In this document: positions 5,216 to 11,806 of the stretch, piece by piece | How the letters are laid out: each line of letters starts with the position of its first letter | Position numbering within the stretch: the first letter of the stretch is position 1 | Source of the DNA: Lachnospiraceae bacterium | Lineage (GTDB): Bacteria > Bacillota > Clostridia > Lachnospirales > Lachnospiraceae | Assembly: GCA_021204285.1 (NCBI GenBank) | Contig: JAJPZP010000085.1 | Span: 4,648 to 17,875 of the forward strand | DNA length: 13,228 nt | Direction of reading: 5' to 3' | Translations under genes and position numbers: made by a program | Notes under the pieces: model-generated | The model's database searches: none | What the model was told of the DNA's origin: nothing | Seen by the model: the letters and a program-made list of their open reading frames with translations, nothing else

Positions 5216-5289
5216 TGCACCTGACAAGATTCGAACTTGCGACACCGGGCGTCGGAGGCCCGTGCTCTATCCAGCTGAGCTACAGGTGC
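5216..5289 (-). tRNA. tRNA-Arg (anticodon CCG)
   Basis: 74 nt, folded by eye. Acceptor GCACCTG/CAGGTGC with discriminator A; D arm GCTC-AGCTGGATA-GAGC; anticodon arm CGGGC-CTCCGAC-GCCCG with anticodon CCG, reading codon CGG; variable loop of 5; T arm GCAAG-TTCGAAT-CTTGT. CCA is not encoded; TTTTT follows the discriminator base directly. Its reverse-complement reading gives the usual false peptide (VAQLDRARASDARCRKFESC). Confidence 0.97.
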
Positions 5290-5535: not shown

Positions 5536-6417
5536 TCACGCTCGTCCTTTCTCACACAATGACATTCTCTTCTCCGCGGCTGAATAATAATACACACTCC
5601 CACTAAGATACTCTTCTGCTCTCACGCAGCGCCTGTTTACCGTATGCACAATCTCTTCCAGATCCGCATTCTCCGGCGTATCAGAGGCCGGCAGCAGAAT
5701 CACCTCATGAATACTGCTTGGCAATACATAATAATCTCCTCCCAGGCGTTCTCCGCACATGCTCTGTACCCCCGGATCCAGAATACAGGCTGCGCCATAT
5801 TCCTTTCGACTGGTGCTCAGAACATATAGATGACTATTAGAATCGTCAAGACCATACTCCCCCAGGAGCTGCTCAAGCGGCTGAAAAAATGCCGGTTCCC
5901 TGCGCATATTCCGCACAGCAATCTCATGCAGCTCCTCCGGCGTCAGCCCCCAGCTGCGCAGATGTTCCGTACGGACCAGTGCCGTTGCATTCTTTATAAT
6001 AGAATCGGGAATCTTCAGATAGTACACAATGGCCAGGTCCAGCCATTTTCGACAGGGAACCTGTTCGAGAAGTTCTGTATTGCGCGTCGCAGAGATCAGC
6101 TTACTGTAAATCAGATCGCGGGCCTTGTCAAACTCAAGAAGCTTCTTTATTTCTTCTCCCGGCAGTGTGCGGCTCCCGCGCTGAAGATTCAGAACCATCT
6201 GCGCGATTTCGCGAATATAGTCGGGATCCGGGCTGCTCCGATAATAATTGTTCACATAGACCGTAGGCTGTTCCCTTCGTCCCGGCATCATACAGCTGAA
6301 TCCATCCAGATGAACGTTGTTATTTTTCAGCACCTGAACACGGCGAATATGCTCTCCCGGAGCCAGATTGCTGTCAATCTCCTCCTCAAGGAGATCCAGA
6401 AATTTATCATAGGTCAT
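5536..6417 (-). CDS. DUF5688-like protein
   Basis: 293-residue soluble protein resembling DUF5688, a family that I associate with Lachnospiraceae; its function is unknown. Seen in the sequence: N-terminal acidic helix (MTYDKFLDLLEEEI), a strand-rich region (about 25-60), a helical middle (70-170), and a C-terminal region with ITIL-type strands including YYVLPSSIHEVILLPA (about 223-238). No signal peptide, membrane helix or enzyme motif was recognised. The start is placed at the ATG with AAAGGA 6 nt upstream; the frame continues 69 nt further without a ribosome binding site. It is divergent from the DAHP synthase gene, and its stop codon touches the repeat element. Confidence 0.85.
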   Translation of the reverse strand: MTYDKFLDLLEEEIDSNLAPGEHIRRVQVLKNNNVHLDGFSCMMPGRREQPTVYVNNYYRSSPDPDYIREIAQMVLNLQRGSRTLPGEEIKKLLEFDKARDLIYSKLISATRNTELLEQVPCRKWLDLAIVYYLKIPDSIIKNATALVRTEHLRSWGLTPEELHEIAVRNMRREPAFFQPLEQLLGEYGLDDSNSHLYVLSTSRKEYGAACILDPGVQSMCGERLGGDYYVLPSSIHEVILLPASDTPENADLEEIVHTVNRRCVRAEEYLSGSVYYYSAAEKRMSLCEKGRA

Positions 6418-6509
6418 GAAAAATCCTTTCTGTCTCTCTCCTCCTTCTGCTCTGTTCCTTAACTGGGAAATGTTGTGCGAAAGCACAGACGCGTTTTATA
6501 TCTGCATCC

Positions 6510-6618: not shown

Positions 6619-7647
6619 ATGGGATTTACATTCAATAAAAAGCTGCCGATTCCAAAGGAGATCAAGGCAATGTATCCGGTCTCCGCGAAATGCGCGGCGA
6701 TAAAAGAACAGCGGGACAAGGAGATCCGCGACGTGATCACCGGAGTAGACGACCGCTTCCTGATCATCATCGGACCCTGCTCGGCGGATAACGAGACGGC
6801 TGTCATGGACTATCTGAGCCGCCTGGTTCCGGTACAGGAAAAGATCAAGGATAAGTGCATCATCATTCCCCGCATCTACACAAATAAGCCCCGCACCACC
6901 GGCGAGGGCTACAAAGGCATGCTCCATCAGGCTGACCCGGAGGCTGCGCCTGATCTGCTCGAAGGTCTCATTGCCATTCGGAAACTGCACATTCGTAATA
7001 TCGAAGAGACCGGTCTGACCGCATCGGACGAGATGCTTTACCCGGAGAACTGGTGGTATCTGGCTGACCTTCTGTCCTACGTCGCAATCGGCGCGCGCTC
7101 TGTAGAAGATCAGCATCACCGCATGACTGCCAGCAGCTTCGACGTCCCTGCCGGCATGAAGAATCCGACGAGCGGCGACCTGACCGTCATGCTGAATTCT
7201 GTCATGGCAGCGCAGCATGCCCACTCCTTCATCTATCGTGGCTGGGATGTCAACACTCCCGGCAACCCGCTGGCGCACACCGTCCTGCGTGGTGCAACAA
7301 ATAAATACGGTACTACGCTACCGAACTATCATTATGAGGATCTCCTGAACCTCTACGAACTGTATCAGCAGAAAAATCTGCAGAACCCGGCCTGTATCGT
7401 AGATGTGAACCACTCGAATTCAAACAAAAAATATCTTGAGCAGATCCGTATCTCCAAGGAAGTGCTGCACAGTCGCCGCCACAATCCGGATATTTGCCGG
7501 CTTGTGAAAGGACTTATGATCGAGAGCTACATTGAGGACGGCAACCAGGGCGTGCATGACAAAGTTTACGGGAAATCCATTACCGATCCCTGCCTTGGGT
7601 GGGAGAAATCTGAACGCCTCATGTATGAGATTGCGGAGGAGTGCTGA
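6619..7647 (+). CDS. aroF: 3-deoxy-7-phosphoheptulonate (DAHP) synthase, class I
   Basis: 342-residue cytosolic enzyme that joins phosphoenolpyruvate and erythrose 4-phosphate, the first step of the shikimate pathway to Phe, Tyr and Trp. It carries the AroF/G/H-type marks: GPCS (52-55, metal-ligand Cys54), PRIYTNKPRTTGEGYKG (84-100), GARSVEDQHHR (158-168), KNPTSGD (181-187), VDVNHSNSNK (His265), ESYIEDGNQ (Glu302) and TDPCLGW (Asp323). These line up with the E. coli metal ligands Cys, His, Glu and Asp. The length is that of the bacterial type, with an N-terminal extension of the kind that binds feedback inhibitors; which amino acid inhibits it cannot be read. GGAGGAG lies 7 nt before the ATG. 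It stands alone, convergent with the large fusion gene; no other aro gene is present. The AroF/G/H sub-branch is uncertain. Confidence 0.96.
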   Translation: MGFTFNKKLPIPKEIKAMYPVSAKCAAIKEQRDKEIRDVITGVDDRFLIIIGPCSADNETAVMDYLSRLVPVQEKIKDKCIIIPRIYTNKPRTTGEGYKGMLHQADPEAAPDLLEGLIAIRKLHIRNIEETGLTASDEMLYPENWWYLADLLSYVAIGARSVEDQHHRMTASSFDVPAGMKNPTSGDLTVMLNSVMAAQHAHSFIYRGWDVNTPGNPLAHTVLRGATNKYGTTLPNYHYEDLLNLYELYQQKNLQNPACIVDVNHSNSNKKYLEQIRISKEVLHSRRHNPDICRLVKGLMIESYIEDGNQGVHDKVYGKSITDPCLGWEKSERLMYEIAEEC

Positions 7648-7675: not shown

Positions 7676-7808
7676 ACAGACCGCCTTCTGCGAAGGCTAT
7701 ATGCCGCTTGCGCGTCATATGTCTGAGGCTTTATGGGCGTTCCGCCCATCCCGAAATGAAGAGACAGCCTTTAGCAGGTAAACCTGCACGGTCTGTCTCT
7801 TCATTTCG
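7676..7808. repeat. Hairpin cluster between two convergent genes
   Basis: The 177-nt gap after the DAHP synthase stop holds a chain of hairpins: gccttc-tgc-gaaggc (7683-7697), atgggcg-ttc-cgcccat (7733-7749), and a 16-bp stem cgaaatgaagagacag / ctgtctcttcatttcg (7752-7767 with 7793-7808) that encloses a smaller gcagg/cctgc stem (7774-7787). An 8-nt segment at 7676-7683 (acagaccg) can instead pair with 7789-7796, which would compete with the large stem. No T-run is present. It probably ends transcription from both sides or is a REP-like element. Confidence 0.7.
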
Positions 7809-7824: not shown

Positions 7825-10800
7825 TTATCTCACATATTTCTGGATAAAATCCAGAATGATCTTCCGCGTCTCCTCATAGCCGCTTCCTGTCTCGAAGCGG
7901 CGCTCCGGGTGCCATTGCAGCGCGAGTACCTTCATCTTGTCCGATCCAAAAGCCTCGACGACATGATTTTCGCGGTCAATGGCGAGCGGCTCAAAGCAGG
8001 GCGCGAGACCTTCTTCGTAAATACAGTCAGAGTGATAATTATTCACCCAGATGTTCCGCTGTTCCTTTACAAGCCAGACTTCATGATCGACACCGCGTAT
8101 CCGGCGAACCGGGAGCTTTGGATAATACCAGAGCTTCCCGCCGAACATGACGTTGATATACTGCATGCCGCGGCAGGTGGCAATGATCGGGATGCCATGC
8201 GCCAGACAGTAGTGGATGACCTGCTCCTCCATATGGTCGCGGTGCGGCTGCAGCTCATCCTCGTGCGGCCTGTCATAAAATTCAGGCGGCAGGGAACCGC
8301 CGCCGACCACGATCAGCAGATCCCGCTTCTTATTGAACACCATCTCCACATTTTTCGTAAAATTTGATATCGCCTTCGGGATAAAGCCGAGCAGCTCATA
8401 AAAGCGTACATAGCCGGATTCCAGGATGTCTACCGGATCACCGTACTGGTTCACGCCCTCGCGCTGCGTGATCAGCGCGCTTAAATTTCGGTACTGCAGC
8501 CCTGCCTCGATTTTTCCCGCCCGGCAGTCCATAACCAGATAAGACAGAGACGACACATAATTGTAGATCTTTTCCCCGCAGCCGATCGCCGCCGGAATCT
8601 CAAACTCCGCACAGCGAATCGCCATATGCGAGGCCGCTCCGCCAAAGCGTGTGATGAAGCCCTTGATCCCCTTCGCGAACACCCATTCATAGCCGGGATC
8701 CGCCTTCGGCACGATCACAATCTTGTCCCTGATATCCGCGCCCGGCTCCTCGTCCAGCAGAACAACCTCCCCCTCGACGCGCTTCGTCGTGATGAAATTC
8801 GGCCTGGCTTCGTAGACCTCAACAACGTTAAGACTGCTCCGATCCAGAATCACTTCCGGCAGGAAAAGTTCCTGGTACTCCTGATATTCCAGACGACGCC
8901 TTTCAATACGCAGCTCCAGCCTGTCCTTGAGTTCCTCCATTGTCATGTACTGTGGCAGCTTAAAATCTTCAATTTCCAGCCAGGAAAGATCATTTCTGGC
9001 AATCTCCATGATCGCTCCGCTGCGAACCAGCAGTTCCAGAATCAGGCTCAGCGATTTTGTAAACTCAAATTTAAAGTATTCGCGCTGTTTAATCGCCTGG
9101 TAAATAAAATAGACGAGCTCCTCAACACCGACCGACAGTCCCGTCTCACGCAGCGCCATCTCCAGGCGAGCGGCATCAAGACGTTTTCTCCCTGTCTCCG
9201 GCCGTGCGGTTCGCGACTGTCCCGGACGGAAATTCATCTGATCGTAGCGCTCTGTCCGAATATCGTAGGTGCCAACCCGCAGATGCCCATATTTCCGGTT
9301 AAACTCAGCGCGGCTGATCTCATCCATCGAGAAAGCGCGAAAATCCTCTTCAAACTCTGTGGAGACCGTCGTGATCGACTGCATGAATGCGTCGATGTCC
9401 TCCTCCGTAAACCAGGTCTCCCCCTCCTGCCCTGCCGGGCCGCTCTCCGTCAGGCTGCGCAGGAAAGCCCGCGCCATGAAAGCCATACGTGCCTGCCGGG
9501 CGAACTGCGGTGTCCCGTAGTGCTGCAGGCTGGCGCGCAGAGACTGCACCGCAGCCAGAATCCTGTGCAGGGAAGCGTTCGGATCCTCCAGGAGTTTCTC
9601 CTCATTGACACGCACCTCCTCCAGCTTTCTCAGGCTTTCCCGATCCATGGCAAGAATCTCATCAAAGCGCAGAATCGCCTGCTCCGTCACATGTTTCAGG
9701 CTGCAAAGAAGCTGTTGCCGCTCTTCCTCACGAAAGCCATGTTCCAACAATCGCTTTGTCTTCTCCGGTGTGCTGAAATCATAGCTGGTAAAGACAATTT
9801 CAAATTCAATCTTATCGTGAGCAGTAAGGTTATGACGCAGCGCATCCTGATAATAAGCAACCAGCCGGAGCGAAAGCTCCTCACTGAGCTCCTGTGGAAT
9901 CAGCGAATAGAATGCGTACTCCAGACAGATGTAAGGCTTATTTCCAATCCGGTGCATCAGATCCTGCTGCAGCCTGCGATAACCCAGGCCCTCGATTCCC
10001 TGGTTCCATGCCCGGTGTGTGATAATCGCGCGATACAGCGAATAGTCGAGCGGGCGCGGATTATTCCCAATAATCTCGGAAGGATTCCAGAAAGCCATAT
10101 CGGACATCATCATCGGCGTACCGGTAATCACATTCTTGTGCTGCTCATACATCTTTCCCGCATTTTCCAGCATATTGTAGAATTTGTGATCGTCATAGGC
10201 ATTTTCCTGCCGGTAACTCGCCACGAGCGGGCGCATCTGGAACAAAATTACCCTGCCGTCACGGTCAATCGCAAACTCGATATCAAGTGCCAGCCCGTCC
10301 ATAATATGCTCAAGTTCCTGCACTGCATACAGAAGATCCCGCCATGGCTGCCGAAGCTGCTCCACTTCTGCGTTTCTCACGATTTTCATCATGCGGCCTG
10401 CAGATCCGCTCGTCACACTGTCCGTAGAGCCGGTCTCGTCATAATTGATCAGATAATAAGGTTTATTATTCTGGATATCACGCGTGAATACGACACCGCT
10501 GTAGACGACATGCTGCGCCTGGCACTGGATCAGCACCTGCTCGTTCTCCAGATGACGAATATCGCGTACATAAGAAGCGATCACCGCGTCAACCGCCGCG
10601 ATGATCTCCTCCTCACTGGACGAATCCACGTCCAGAATGCTCTTATAATGTCCAGCGTTCGAATGCCGGTAGGAATCTTCCTCCGAGGAGGAACTGCGCA
10701 CCACGATCCTTCGTCCGCGGAACTGCGCCATAATCTCATGGCAAACCGCAAGCTTGTCCTTCTGATAATCGCGATTCCATAAAATATACATCTCCTCGAT

Positions 10801-10872
10801 CGAGGATTTCTTAACAAGACTGCGCAGGGCAAAGAGCGTCCCTGCCTTCGTCGATATCAGTTTCTGTTCCAT
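7825..10872 (-). CDS. Putative L-glutamine kinase / gamma-glutamyl amidate hydrolase fusion
   Basis: 1015-residue cytosolic protein with three recognisable parts. (1) An ATP-grasp domain of the PPDK/PEP-synthase type at about 1-220 (VVRSSSSEED with Arg59, SNAGHYKS, ending FQMRPL at 211-216). (2) After a long helical middle containing YGHLRVGTYDI (528-538), a swivelling phosphohistidine domain at about 690-795 with GGAASHMAIRCAEFEIPAAIG and catalytic His749. (3) A class I amidotransferase/peptidase C26-like domain from about 800 to the end, starting ITQREGVNQYG, with Cys900 (ATCRGMQ), NNYHSD, and WHPE giving His988 and Glu990. The C-terminal PEP barrel of PEP synthase is absent. Parts 1 and 2 resemble Campylobacter Cj1418, which makes gamma-glutamyl phosphoramidate from Gln and ATP; part 3 resembles Cj1417, which splits the gamma-glutamyl amide after nucleotide transfer. 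The start is the second of two adjacent ATGs, 6 nt after AAGGAG; a GTG 27 nt further out has no site. It lies 19 nt after the Xer gene. Alternative: another phosphotransferase such as a rifampicin-phosphotransferase relative. Confidence 0.8.
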   Translation of the reverse strand: MEQKLISTKAGTLFALRSLVKKSSIEEMYILWNRDYQKDKLAVCHEIMAQFRGRRIVVRSSSSEEDSYRHSNAGHYKSILDVDSSSEEEIIAAVDAVIASYVRDIRHLENEQVLIQCQAQHVVYSGVVFTRDIQNNKPYYLINYDETGSTDSVTSGSAGRMMKIVRNAEVEQLRQPWRDLLYAVQELEHIMDGLALDIEFAIDRDGRVILFQMRPLVASYRQENAYDDHKFYNMLENAGKMYEQHKNVITGTPMMMSDMAFWNPSEIIGNNPRPLDYSLYRAIITHRAWNQGIEGLGYRRLQQDLMHRIGNKPYICLEYAFYSLIPQELSEELSLRLVAYYQDALRHNLTAHDKIEFEIVFTSYDFSTPEKTKRLLEHGFREEERQQLLCSLKHVTEQAILRFDEILAMDRESLRKLEEVRVNEEKLLEDPNASLHRILAAVQSLRASLQHYGTPQFARQARMAFMARAFLRSLTESGPAGQEGETWFTEEDIDAFMQSITTVSTEFEEDFRAFSMDEISRAEFNRKYGHLRVGTYDIRTERYDQMNFRPGQSRTARPETGRKRLDAARLEMALRETGLSVGVEELVYFIYQAIKQREYFKFEFTKSLSLILELLVRSGAIMEIARNDLSWLEIEDFKLPQYMTMEELKDRLELRIERRRLEYQEYQELFLPEVILDRSSLNVVEVYEARPNFITTKRVEGEVVLLDEEPGADIRDKIVIVPKADPGYEWVFAKGIKGFITRFGGAASHMAIRCAEFEIPAAIGCGEKIYNYVSSLSYLVMDCRAGKIEAGLQYRNLSALITQREGVNQYGDPVDILESGYVRFYELLGFIPKAISNFTKNVEMVFNKKRDLLIVVGGGSLPPEFYDRPHEDELQPHRDHMEEQVIHYCLAHGIPIIATCRGMQYINVMFGGKLWYYPKLPVRRIRGVDHEVWLVKEQRNIWVNNYHSDCIYEEGLAPCFEPLAIDRENHVVEAFGSDKMKVLALQWHPERRFETGSGYEETRKIILDFIQKYVR

Positions 10873-10891
10873 CATCCGCTCCTTTTTCGCG

Positions 10892-11773
10892 TCATGCACG
10901 CGGATGCGTTTTGCTGTACTCCGTTTTCATGCCGATCTGAAATTCTGCGTAAATCTGTGTCGCCGCAATATCTTTATGTCCGCGCATCTCCTGGATAACC
11001 GGAAGGCCTGCGCCTCTTGCAGCCATATGAGCCGCACAGGAATGGCGGAACATCCGCGGCGTAATATCTTTATCAATGCCTGCCCTTGCAGCATAACCCT
11101 TCAGAATTTTCCAGAATCCCTGCCTGCTCATCGGTTTTCCGGAACAGTTTAAAAATAAAATCGTCTGCTTCTCATCCTTCAAAAAGACATCGCGTGCTAT
11201 TTTAAGGTAATCCTTTATAGCCTGCGCTGCTGCCTCCCCAAAAGGAACCATGCGCTCGCGATCCGCGTCACGGCAGATCAGCCATCCAAAACGCAGATTG
11301 ATATCCTCCTCATGAAGCGTGAGCAGCTCGCTGACGCGCATTCCTGTCGCATAGAGCAGTTCCAGCATGGCCCGGTCACGCAATTCTTTCGGCTTATTCG
11401 ATGAAGGCTGCATAAGCAGGCACTCCATCTCCTGCTCTGTCAGGATCTCCGGTGTATGCTTCTCCACCTTCGGCGGCCTGAGAAAAAATGAGGGGTCCTC
11501 TGCAATCCGGTGCTCCCGCAGCAGATAATCAAAAAAAGCTTTGATCGACGCAACATACCGCGAAATCGTCGCCGCCGACATCCCTTTTTTCTCCATATCC
11601 AGTATATAGGAACTCAATACCGTCGCACTCACATCCGCGGCACGCGCGATCCCCTGTTCCTGCAGATAAGCCGCCATCTTTGTCAGATCTCCCCGATAAG
11701 ACATGACGGTATTGCGCGAAAGCCGCTTCACCGTCTCCAGGTATCCCGTAAACTCCTGTATTTCCTTCTCCAT
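10892..11773 (-). CDS. Xer-like tyrosine recombinase with altered catalytic residues
   Basis: 293-residue protein of the XerC/XerD type: an N-terminal SAM-like DNA-binding domain (about 1-90) and a C-terminal catalytic domain (108-290). Present: Arg146 (GMRVSELL), Arg243 and His244 (FRHSCAAHM), His266 (MRGHKD) and the nucleophile Tyr275 (QIYAEF). Missing: the box II His of the HxxR motif is Arg240 (TPRMFRH), and the beta-hairpin catalytic Lys is gone, since the aligned segment CRDADRERMVP has no lysine from about 157 to 186. Family function is dimer resolution at dif or DNA integration. Its place beside spoIIM matches xerD/ripX in B. subtilis, which argues for a resident chromosomal gene and not a mobile one. 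The ATG was chosen because GGGGGA lies 6 nt upstream; an ATG 24 nt further out has no site. It probably starts the transcript that includes the kinase-hydrolase fusion. Confidence 0.88.
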   Translation of the reverse strand: MEKEIQEFTGYLETVKRLSRNTVMSYRGDLTKMAAYLQEQGIARAADVSATVLSSYILDMEKKGMSAATISRYVASIKAFFDYLLREHRIAEDPSFFLRPPKVEKHTPEILTEQEMECLLMQPSSNKPKELRDRAMLELLYATGMRVSELLTLHEEDINLRFGWLICRDADRERMVPFGEAAAQAIKDYLKIARDVFLKDEKQTILFLNCSGKPMSRQGFWKILKGYAARAGIDKDITPRMFRHSCAAHMAARGAGLPVIQEMRGHKDIAATQIYAEFQIGMKTEYSKTHPRA

Positions 11774-11786
11774 AACAATCCCCCGT

Positions 11787-11806
11787 AAAAACCACACACG
11801 GTTTTT
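11787..11806 (-). promoter_or_regulatory. Short hairpin with T-run in the xer leader
   Basis: aaaaacc / ggttttt, 7 bp, 6-nt loop, so on the minus strand a stem ending GGTTTTT. It lies between the predicted start of transcription (near 11812) and the ATG. Only two GC pairs support it, so it is at best a weak terminator or a 5' stabilising hairpin. Confidence 0.4.

Follow-up and report, generated by a model that had tools for sequence, protein, structure and literature searches.

The fusion gene and its domains

The 13,228-nucleotide stretch of Lachnospiraceae bacterium contig JAJPZP010000085.1 analysed here, referred to throughout as the window, carries on its minus strand a gene that joins a glutamine-kinase-like enzyme to a gamma-glutamyl (amidate) hydrolase. 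The open reading frame (ORF) of 1,015 codons runs from an ATG at 10872 to a stop at 7825, and the frame is already open from a GTG at 10899. The gene comprises the following features, with the evidence for each in brackets.

7825..10872 including the stop, minus strand: fusion gene, 1,015 amino acids, glutamine-kinase-like enzyme plus gamma-glutamyl (amidate) hydrolase (ORF, Pfam, NCBIfam)
10198..10872, minus strand: ATP-grasp (PPDK_N-like) domain, residues 1–225, with a boundary of our choosing (Pfam, structure model)
8803..10197, minus strand: helical acceptor domain, residues 226–690, proposed glutamine site (model mostly helical, Foldseek match to RPH-Lm)
8506..8802, minus strand: phospho-histidine swivelling domain, residues 691–789 (Pfam PEP-utilizers, 716–786)
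8626..8628, minus strand: codon of His749, the expected phospho-carrier (column conservation)
7828..8487, minus strand: class I/peptidase C26 gamma-glutamyl hydrolase domain, residues 796–1015 (Pfam, NCBIfam below its cut-off, PuuD/SpuA fold)
8173..8175, minus strand: codon of Cys900, the nucleophile (100% in 40 triad hydrolases and 26 fusions)
7909..7911, minus strand: codon of His988 (100% in the same sets)
7903..7905, minus strand: codon of Glu990 (100% in the same sets)
10879..10884, minus strand: AAGGAG, ribosome-binding-like site just before the ATG (read from the sequence)

The single-chain kinase–hydrolase fusion is confirmed. Pfam finds PPDK_N (44.5 bits) and PEP-utilizers (49.5 bits), and no match to a phosphoenolpyruvate (PEP)/pyruvate barrel up to an E-value of 0.1, which bears out the first-pass annotation of this DNA, made from the sequence alone, in proposing an ATP-grasp domain and a phospho-histidine domain around His749 with no such barrel. 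Its other proposal, a complete hydrolase or amidotransferase-like domain with Cys900, His988 and Glu990, also stands: residues 814–990 match Peptidase_C26 at 81.7 bits, passing the gathering score of 20.5, and these three residues, like His749, are invariant across ten aligned fusions. No regulatory domain was seen in the fusion with Pfam or in the structure model.

An AlphaFold2 model was built from 62 aligned rows, with a mean predicted local distance difference test score (pLDDT) of 90.1 and a predicted template modelling score (pTM) of 0.79. Its best whole-chain match in the PDB by Foldseek is the rifampin phosphotransferase of Listeria, RPH-Lm (E-value of 1e-21, 14% identity); the acceptor domain lies at what we take to be the position of the rifampin-binding domain in RPH. 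The fold of the C-terminal part is nearest to PuuD, SpuA and the uncharacterised lin1909, with amidotransferase subunits such as those of carbamoyl phosphate and GMP synthetases ranking behind these.

Family placement of the two halves

In Campylobacter jejuni, AMP is a product of the glutamine kinase, Cj1416 is the cytidylyltransferase that acts on phosphoglutamine, and Cj1417 is the gamma-glutamyl-CDP-amidate hydrolase. Excerpts of PMC10971088 and PMC6429109 describe the kinase as phosphorylating the amide nitrogen of glutamine, a rare modification described for the Campylobacter capsule pathway, and the EC number of the L-glutamine kinase Cj1418, 2.7.3.13, comes from among excerpts of PMC6429109, PMC10971088, PMC10919079, PMC12660748 and PMC11800379. 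In the open-licence literature searched, the matches listed and their excerpts contain no report of a glutamine kinase fused to a hydrolase, and none of phosphoramidate synthesis by Lachnospiraceae.

Likeness to Cj1416–Cj1418 was assessed through NCBIfam models and through triads, that is, loci holding a kinase, a hydrolase and a Cj1416-like nucleotidyltransferase together. A genome scan returned 196 relatives, of which the best 80 loci were kept and classified as 40 triads, 25 fusions, nine lone kinases and six kinase–hydrolase pairs. Genes were picked by longest ORF, a crude procedure by which an antisense ORF displaced the fusion in L043; L031, a copy of the triad L065 (CANPXH010000037.1), is additionally counted in some tallies. 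Three lone kinases (L089, L100 and L114) are truncated at a contig end or lie near one, leaving six solo kinases (L064, L066, L071, L073, L079 and L084). Four pairs were counted (L074, L085, L094 and L102), with L097, which has a nucleotidyltransferase elsewhere in its genome, and L113, at a contig end, left out.

Residues 3–789 score 747.6 bits (749.5 in a second search) with NCBIfam PRK05849, over its cut-off of 501; the model carries the name 'hypothetical protein' and is, we take it, the one that covers Cj1418. It is matched by 43 of the 62 rows of alignment A6, the number of rows that bear a kinase. None of the 22 matched solved-structure sequences is named glutamine kinase. The fold match to RPH-Lm would suit an enzyme like rifampicin phosphotransferase or PEP synthase to which an unrelated hydrolase has been joined, but the low identity to RPH-Lm and the model scores speak against it: the NCBIfam rifamycin model gives 26.8 bits against a cut-off of 999 and the PEP synthase models 22–48 bits against cut-offs of 598–976, far from the result with PRK05849. 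Rifampicin phosphotransferase and, also for want of the barrel, PEP synthase or pyruvate phosphate dikinase were rejected as identities of the kinase part, and we give this explanation practically no weight.

At a threshold of 95% of rows or more, 91 kinase columns are conserved among 38 triad kinases, and 85 of them are kept at the same threshold among 26 fusions. Four of the remaining six hold the same residue less uniformly, and two are fixed changes (D729E and L739F). By domain, the fusions keep 25 of 26 such columns in the ATP-grasp domain, 37 of 40 in the acceptor domain and 23 of 25 in the phospho-histidine domain; the 40 acceptor columns are kept in full by the pairs and at 37 positions by the solo kinases, and His749 is identical in at least 95% of rows in each of the four groups. 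With the triad-conserved columns kept, those of the acceptor domain included, L-glutamine is the likeliest acceptor of the kinase part as judged from the alignment. The kinase might instead act on another amide or gamma-glutamyl compound, whose product the hydrolase would then process: the identity of the substrate comes from the family alone, and non-fusion relatives are about 28–47% identical to the window protein. Against this stand the near-complete retention of the acceptor columns and the recurrence of a gamma-glutamyl hydrolase as partner in triads, pairs and fusions alike, and we regard a different substrate as improbable.

The best NCBIfam model for the C-terminal region is that of gamma-glutamyl-CDP-amidate hydrolase (NF045546), with a score of 58.8 bits where the cut-off is 250; at an E-value of 1e-10 this model is matched by 37 of the 62 rows of A6, the number that bear a hydrolase. 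The first-pass likening to the two Campylobacter enzymes thus holds for the kinase half, which is over the PRK05849 cut-off, and falls short for the hydrolase half, which lies under its curated cut-off. Cys900, His988, Glu990 and Arg991 are invariant in the 26 fusion rows and 40 triad hydrolases, and the fusions keep 23 of the 26 hydrolase columns that reach 90% conservation or more across the 40 triad rows. By family and fold, the fused domain is a predicted gamma-glutamyl hydrolase with an intact Cys-His-Glu triad.

The same region also matches GATase (45.6 bits), and fusions of GATase domains to synthases are common in general. The C-terminal domain could on that basis act as an amidotransferase that hydrolyses free glutamine, with the ammonia being phosphorylated from the phospho-histidine to give phosphoramidate. 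The better match and fold likeness to gamma-glutamyl hydrolases of the PuuD/SpuA type, together with the solo kinases, which keep 37 of the 40 acceptor columns without a hydrolase, make this very unlikely.

Absence of a dedicated nucleotidyltransferase

A model of 19 triad nucleotidyltransferases (A4) was searched against whole genomes: 29 with fusions (17 plus 17 searched, with five repeats), four with pairs, six with solo kinases and 16 with triads. In the triad genomes it scores 208–428 bits; nine of these supplied rows of the model, and the other seven give 208–424 bits. Across the 39 fusion, pair and solo genomes it reaches at most 93.1 bits, 22 of them have no match at an E-value of 1e-12, and no partner CTP:phosphoglutamine cytidylyltransferase was found. 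Nine of the ten same-genus fusion genomes (completeness 88–98%) lack a match at the same threshold, and in the tenth a score of 75.5 bits falls inside a 671-codon frame. Because some genomes are drafts (the window's own is 88.5% complete), little follows from any one absence, and the weight lies on the pattern across genomes. The dedicated middle enzyme is absent from the genomes searched, some of which are drafts.

The first-pass annotation saw no Cj1416-like enzyme nearby, and the A4 search bears this out across the whole genome in all 29 fusion genomes covered. It had left two alternatives, a nucleotidyltransferase in trans or direct release of phosphoramidate; from the genome-wide absence we infer that the second is favoured.

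The first alternative amounts to the Campylobacter pathway with a dispersed gene: an enzyme in trans would make a nucleotidyl derivative of N-phospho-glutamine, which the fused hydrolase would cleave. It agrees with gamma-glutamyl-CDP-amidate hydrolase being the closest curated model of the hydrolase. Several fusion genomes outside the genus encode NTP_transferase-like proteins (49–91 bits), and TagD-like stretches (42–61 bits) occur in eight of the 16 fusion genomes covered. Against these are the same-genus genomes without an A4 match, the lack of a dedicated copy in all 39 genomes, and the other eight of the 16 genomes (G000 among them), in which the TagD-like model finds nothing at an E-value of 1e-5. 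We consider a route through an enzyme in trans unlikely.

That model (A9) represents a domain which precedes many triad kinases: an N-terminal TagD/glycerol-3-phosphate-cytidylyltransferase-like domain, some 138 residues long, occurs in 25 of 41 triad loci (L031 counted). The TagD–kinase at 2837–5614 of L031 is an example, and constitutes a second fusion in the same pathway; the window fusion has no TagD-like domain. As a substitute nucleotidyltransferase the TagD-like domain was rejected, A9 giving at most 61.1 bits in the 16 fusion genomes and 216.5 bits in G046, which supplied one of its rows.

In the six solo-kinase genomes, neither a dedicated hydrolase nor a dedicated nucleotidyltransferase was found. 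The hydrolase model gives best scores of 50.7–54.6 bits in five of them and 104.4 bits in one; in genomes with a dedicated hydrolase, the second-best matches go up to 112.2 bits.

Distribution, origin and selection

Full-length fusions were found in 11 of 61 genomes, the window's own included: ten of 17 from the same genus and one other. A sample of 396 genomes from the family yielded 18 with a match at an E-value of 1e-40, nine of these being full-length fusions, and among 398 genomes of the phylum there are two with a match, the window's own and one partial. One of the 25 fusion loci lies in a record not marked as a metagenome-assembled genome (MAG), that of Lachnoclostridium sp. An196. An assembly or frameshift artefact is ruled out by full-length copies in many genomes.

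In a midpoint-rooted kinase tree of 75 rows, the fusions form one clade (Shimodaira–Hasegawa-like approximate likelihood ratio test, SH-aLRT, 100), which groups with the six solo kinases and three pairs (support 82) among the triad kinases. In the hydrolase tree (72 rows) the fusions are again one clade (100/99), joined with all four pairs (100/99) next to the triad hydrolases. The trees show a single origin of the fusion. The kinase tree holds 75 of 81 rows, L031 being left out as the copy of L065 and L092, L110, L113, L089 and L100 as broken or cut; L097 and L114 were additionally left out of the column counts.

Compared with six same-genus copies, the ratio of nonsynonymous to synonymous substitution rates (dN/dS) is 0.03–0.12 in the kinase half and 0.02–0.06 in the hydrolase half; a seventh comparison (L017) is saturated at silent sites. 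The gene is under strong purifying selection, and the fusion is old and selected, forming one clade of 25 of the 80 loci with dN/dS of 0.02–0.12. It is not universal within the genus: in G014 and G016 it sits between the gene for 3-deoxy-D-arabino-heptulosonate 7-phosphate (DAHP) synthase and a XerD–SpoIIM–ProC block, and in G005 the two lie 2.2 kb apart without it. Of three fusion-less genomes compared at this place, G005 alone has both in one stretch; the 10-kb stretches taken from G009 and G015 did not contain the XerD–ProC block and so carry no information.

Several occurrences lie outside these sets. A partial kinase-like stretch (G209:C2:183010-184032; query residues 125–479, 37% identity), in a family genome listed as 100% complete, enters no count. 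Kinase relatives occur in 14 plasmid records (Vibrio alfacsensis, Azospirillum, Cupriavidus, Agrobacterium and others), seven of which match most of the fusion, hydrolase part included, and triads are also present in MAGs named Euryarchaeota, marine group I thaumarchaeote and Nanoarchaeota (L086, L098 and L106). A phage origin was rejected: the only full-length fusion in the phage collection, L168 (MT837632.1, 'Bacteriophage sp.', unverified; 58.7% identical to the window protein), lies on a bacterial-looking contig with MurC-like and thioredoxin-reductase-like frames, named by eye.

Gene neighbourhood

The genes and elements around the fusion in the window are as follows.

10892..11797, minus strand: XerD/XerC-like tyrosine recombinase gene, directly upstream of the fusion on the same strand (Pfam, NCBIfam; order kept in L036 and L179)
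7753..7807, no strand assigned: 15-bp inverted repeat, terminator-like, between the fusion and the convergent DAHP synthase gene (read from the sequence)
6619..7647, plus strand: DAHP synthase (aroFGH type), convergent neighbour, housekeeping context (Pfam, NCBIfam)
5536..6486, minus strand: gene for a DUF5688 protein
5216..5289, minus strand: tRNA gene

Nineteen bases separate the end of the recombinase gene from the ATG of the fusion, and that the two are co-transcribed is a guess. The inverted repeat is not among the 14 terminator-like hits of a simple scan. An Rfam scan near the gene in 13 sources (the window, L047, L050, L051, L056, L057, L077, L066, L071, L074, L079, L085 and L102) gave 17 matches, 15 to tRNA and two to RNase P, and no RNA switch.

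A search with single glycan-marker sequences hit 12 of 40 triad loci (including L065, copy of the marker source) against none of 40 others; it was too insensitive, and Pfam on sampled neighbours was therefore used instead. The triads sampled have surface-polymer genes around them: the 65 neighbours from ten triad loci include LicD (five), sugar epimerases or dehydratases (four), CDP-glycerol glycerophosphotransferase (three) and glycosyltransferases of group 1 (three) and group 2 (two). The 61 neighbours from ten fusion, pair and solo loci belong to families such as RNase Y, CTP synthase, uracil phosphoribosyltransferase and TrmK, with one member each. These tallies cover the first 25 of 81 (triad) and of 85 (non-triad) families. 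By judgement, two of 67 triad frames were left out (one in L070 and the hydrolase of L109), as were nine of 70 non-triad frames (six of the seven of L043, which are antisense, and one each of L038, L066 and L077).

Neither among the window genes nor among the sampled neighbours of fusions, pairs and solo kinases was a capsule or surface-glycan locus found; these genes are mostly housekeeping, an exception being a glycosyltransferase-like frame visible by eye in L051. The kinase branch with the fusions appears to have left surface-glycan loci. This bears as well on a nucleotidyltransferase in trans, against which it counts that LicD, glycerophosphotransferase and glycosyltransferase are not among the 25 commonest neighbour families of the ten non-triad loci.

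All six solo kinases occupy the same conserved site in the core genome, flanked by a sodium:solute symporter gene on one side and pyrH/frr/uppS-like genes on the other; a second site, near dgt-, dnaG- and rpoD-like genes, is common to three of the pairs (names by eye). Two further gene associations were seen. A 4HBT-like thioesterase lies near the fusion in three loci (L051 12227–12709, L052 13914–14405 and L061 13917–14396) and adjoins the pair in two (L085 13090–13521 and L094 13168–13623), with 35–41% identity between the two groups and an otherwise different gene order. A sodium:solute symporter family protein adjoins two fusions (L056 5412–7001 and L059 3815–5356) and is near all six solo kinases; identity is 23–44%, and the association may be chance.

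The solo kinases bear on a further explanation, in which N-phospho-glutamine is itself the functional product, as a signal or phosphagen-like store, and the hydrolase removes it, so that writer and eraser would share one chain. Six kinases at a conserved place without a dedicated nucleotidyltransferase or hydrolase imply that the kinase product must be useful alone there, and the hydrolase half has a lower dN than the kinase half in six of seven comparisons. The fusion, however, has a single origin and is intact in 25 loci, and making and destroying the same compound would be wasteful unless regulated, with no regulatory domain seen. For the fusion we hold such a role to be unlikely; in the solo-kinase sister group, N-phospho-glutamine itself may be the useful product.

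Proposed reaction and comparison with known enzymes

We put at slightly better than even the chance that the fusion belongs to a nucleotide-free branch of phosphorus–nitrogen (P–N) metabolism, as an enzyme with two active sites that would make N-phospho-glutamine and then split it straight into glutamate and phosphoramidate. Direct cleavage is the simplest route when no dedicated enzyme is there to attach a nucleotide to N-phospho-glutamine. The ATP-grasp domain would phosphorylate His749 from ATP, and the histidine domain would swing to the helical acceptor domain and phosphorylate the side-chain amide of L-glutamine. Cys900, with His988 and Glu990, would then attack the gamma-carbonyl of N-phospho-glutamine and release phosphoramidate, after which hydrolysis of the gamma-glutamyl thioester would yield glutamate. 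The net reaction would be ATP + Gln -> AMP + phosphate + Glu + phosphoramidate. The substrate, the direct cleavage of a non-nucleotidylated intermediate and the products are all inferred.

Several points weigh against this reading. None of ten hydrolases scored singly reaches the NF045546 cut-off, the fused one being lowest and the other nine, triads included, at 62–130 bits. In the kinase tree, the clustering of fusions with solo kinases and three pairs has only moderate support, and the fourth pair, L074, sits elsewhere on a long branch. In the solo genomes, which have no dedicated hydrolase, phosphoramidate release cannot be the point. Two fusion neighbours match Polysacc_synt and MatE and are by eye MurJ/SpoVB-like flippases, and nothing recognised nearby would consume phosphoramidate. 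The trans-acting role could fall to a nucleotidyltransferase from a different family, and we know of no activity for any member of the fusion clade.

Compared with Cj1418 of the methyl phosphoramidate capsule pathway, the window kinase belongs by score to the same family and has the order ATP-grasp, acceptor and phospho-histidine domain without a PEP barrel, presumably also the order of Cj1418; it differs in being fused to a hydrolase, outside a capsule locus and in a genome in which no dedicated cytidylyltransferase was found. The hydrolase domain shares with Cj1417 its best NCBIfam model and the Cys-His-Glu triad, but it scores far below the cut-off, is fused, and has no dedicated enzyme found that would make a CDP substrate.

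The split triad L031, from a Clostridia MAG of the same order, has relatives of both fusion halves as neighbours beside a nucleotidyltransferase (kinase 46% and hydrolase 41–42% identical to the halves). It differs from the window in having three genes, with the TagD-like domain on the kinase and the nucleotidyltransferase next door, and its further genes are by eye surface-polysaccharide-like. RPH-Lm, the closest solved fold, lies far under the family cut-off and presumably lacks a hydrolase. PuuD and SpuA (peptidase C26) share fold and family with the C-terminal domain, but are only about 17–25% identical to it, are not fused, and act on gamma-glutamyl-GABA (gamma-aminobutyric acid) or, as we assume for SpuA, a gamma-glutamyl polyamine.

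These results suggest that carriers of the fusion make a rare P–N compound for a purpose other than capsule decoration. The kinase branch is chromosomal, has no dedicated nucleotidyltransferase and in one lineage has become a single two-enzyme chain. More tentatively, and at less than even confidence, gut Lachnospiraceae and their kin may run a P–N metabolism outside capsules, with phosphoramidate (fusions and pairs) or N-phospho-glutamine (solo kinases) as end product and the fusion as a dedicated phosphoramidate synthase. If so, either compound could serve, for example, as a phosphoryl donor that phosphorylates histidine or as a signal of glutamine supply. If phosphoramidate is made, some gut bacteria would count a reactive phosphoryl donor among their ordinary metabolites.

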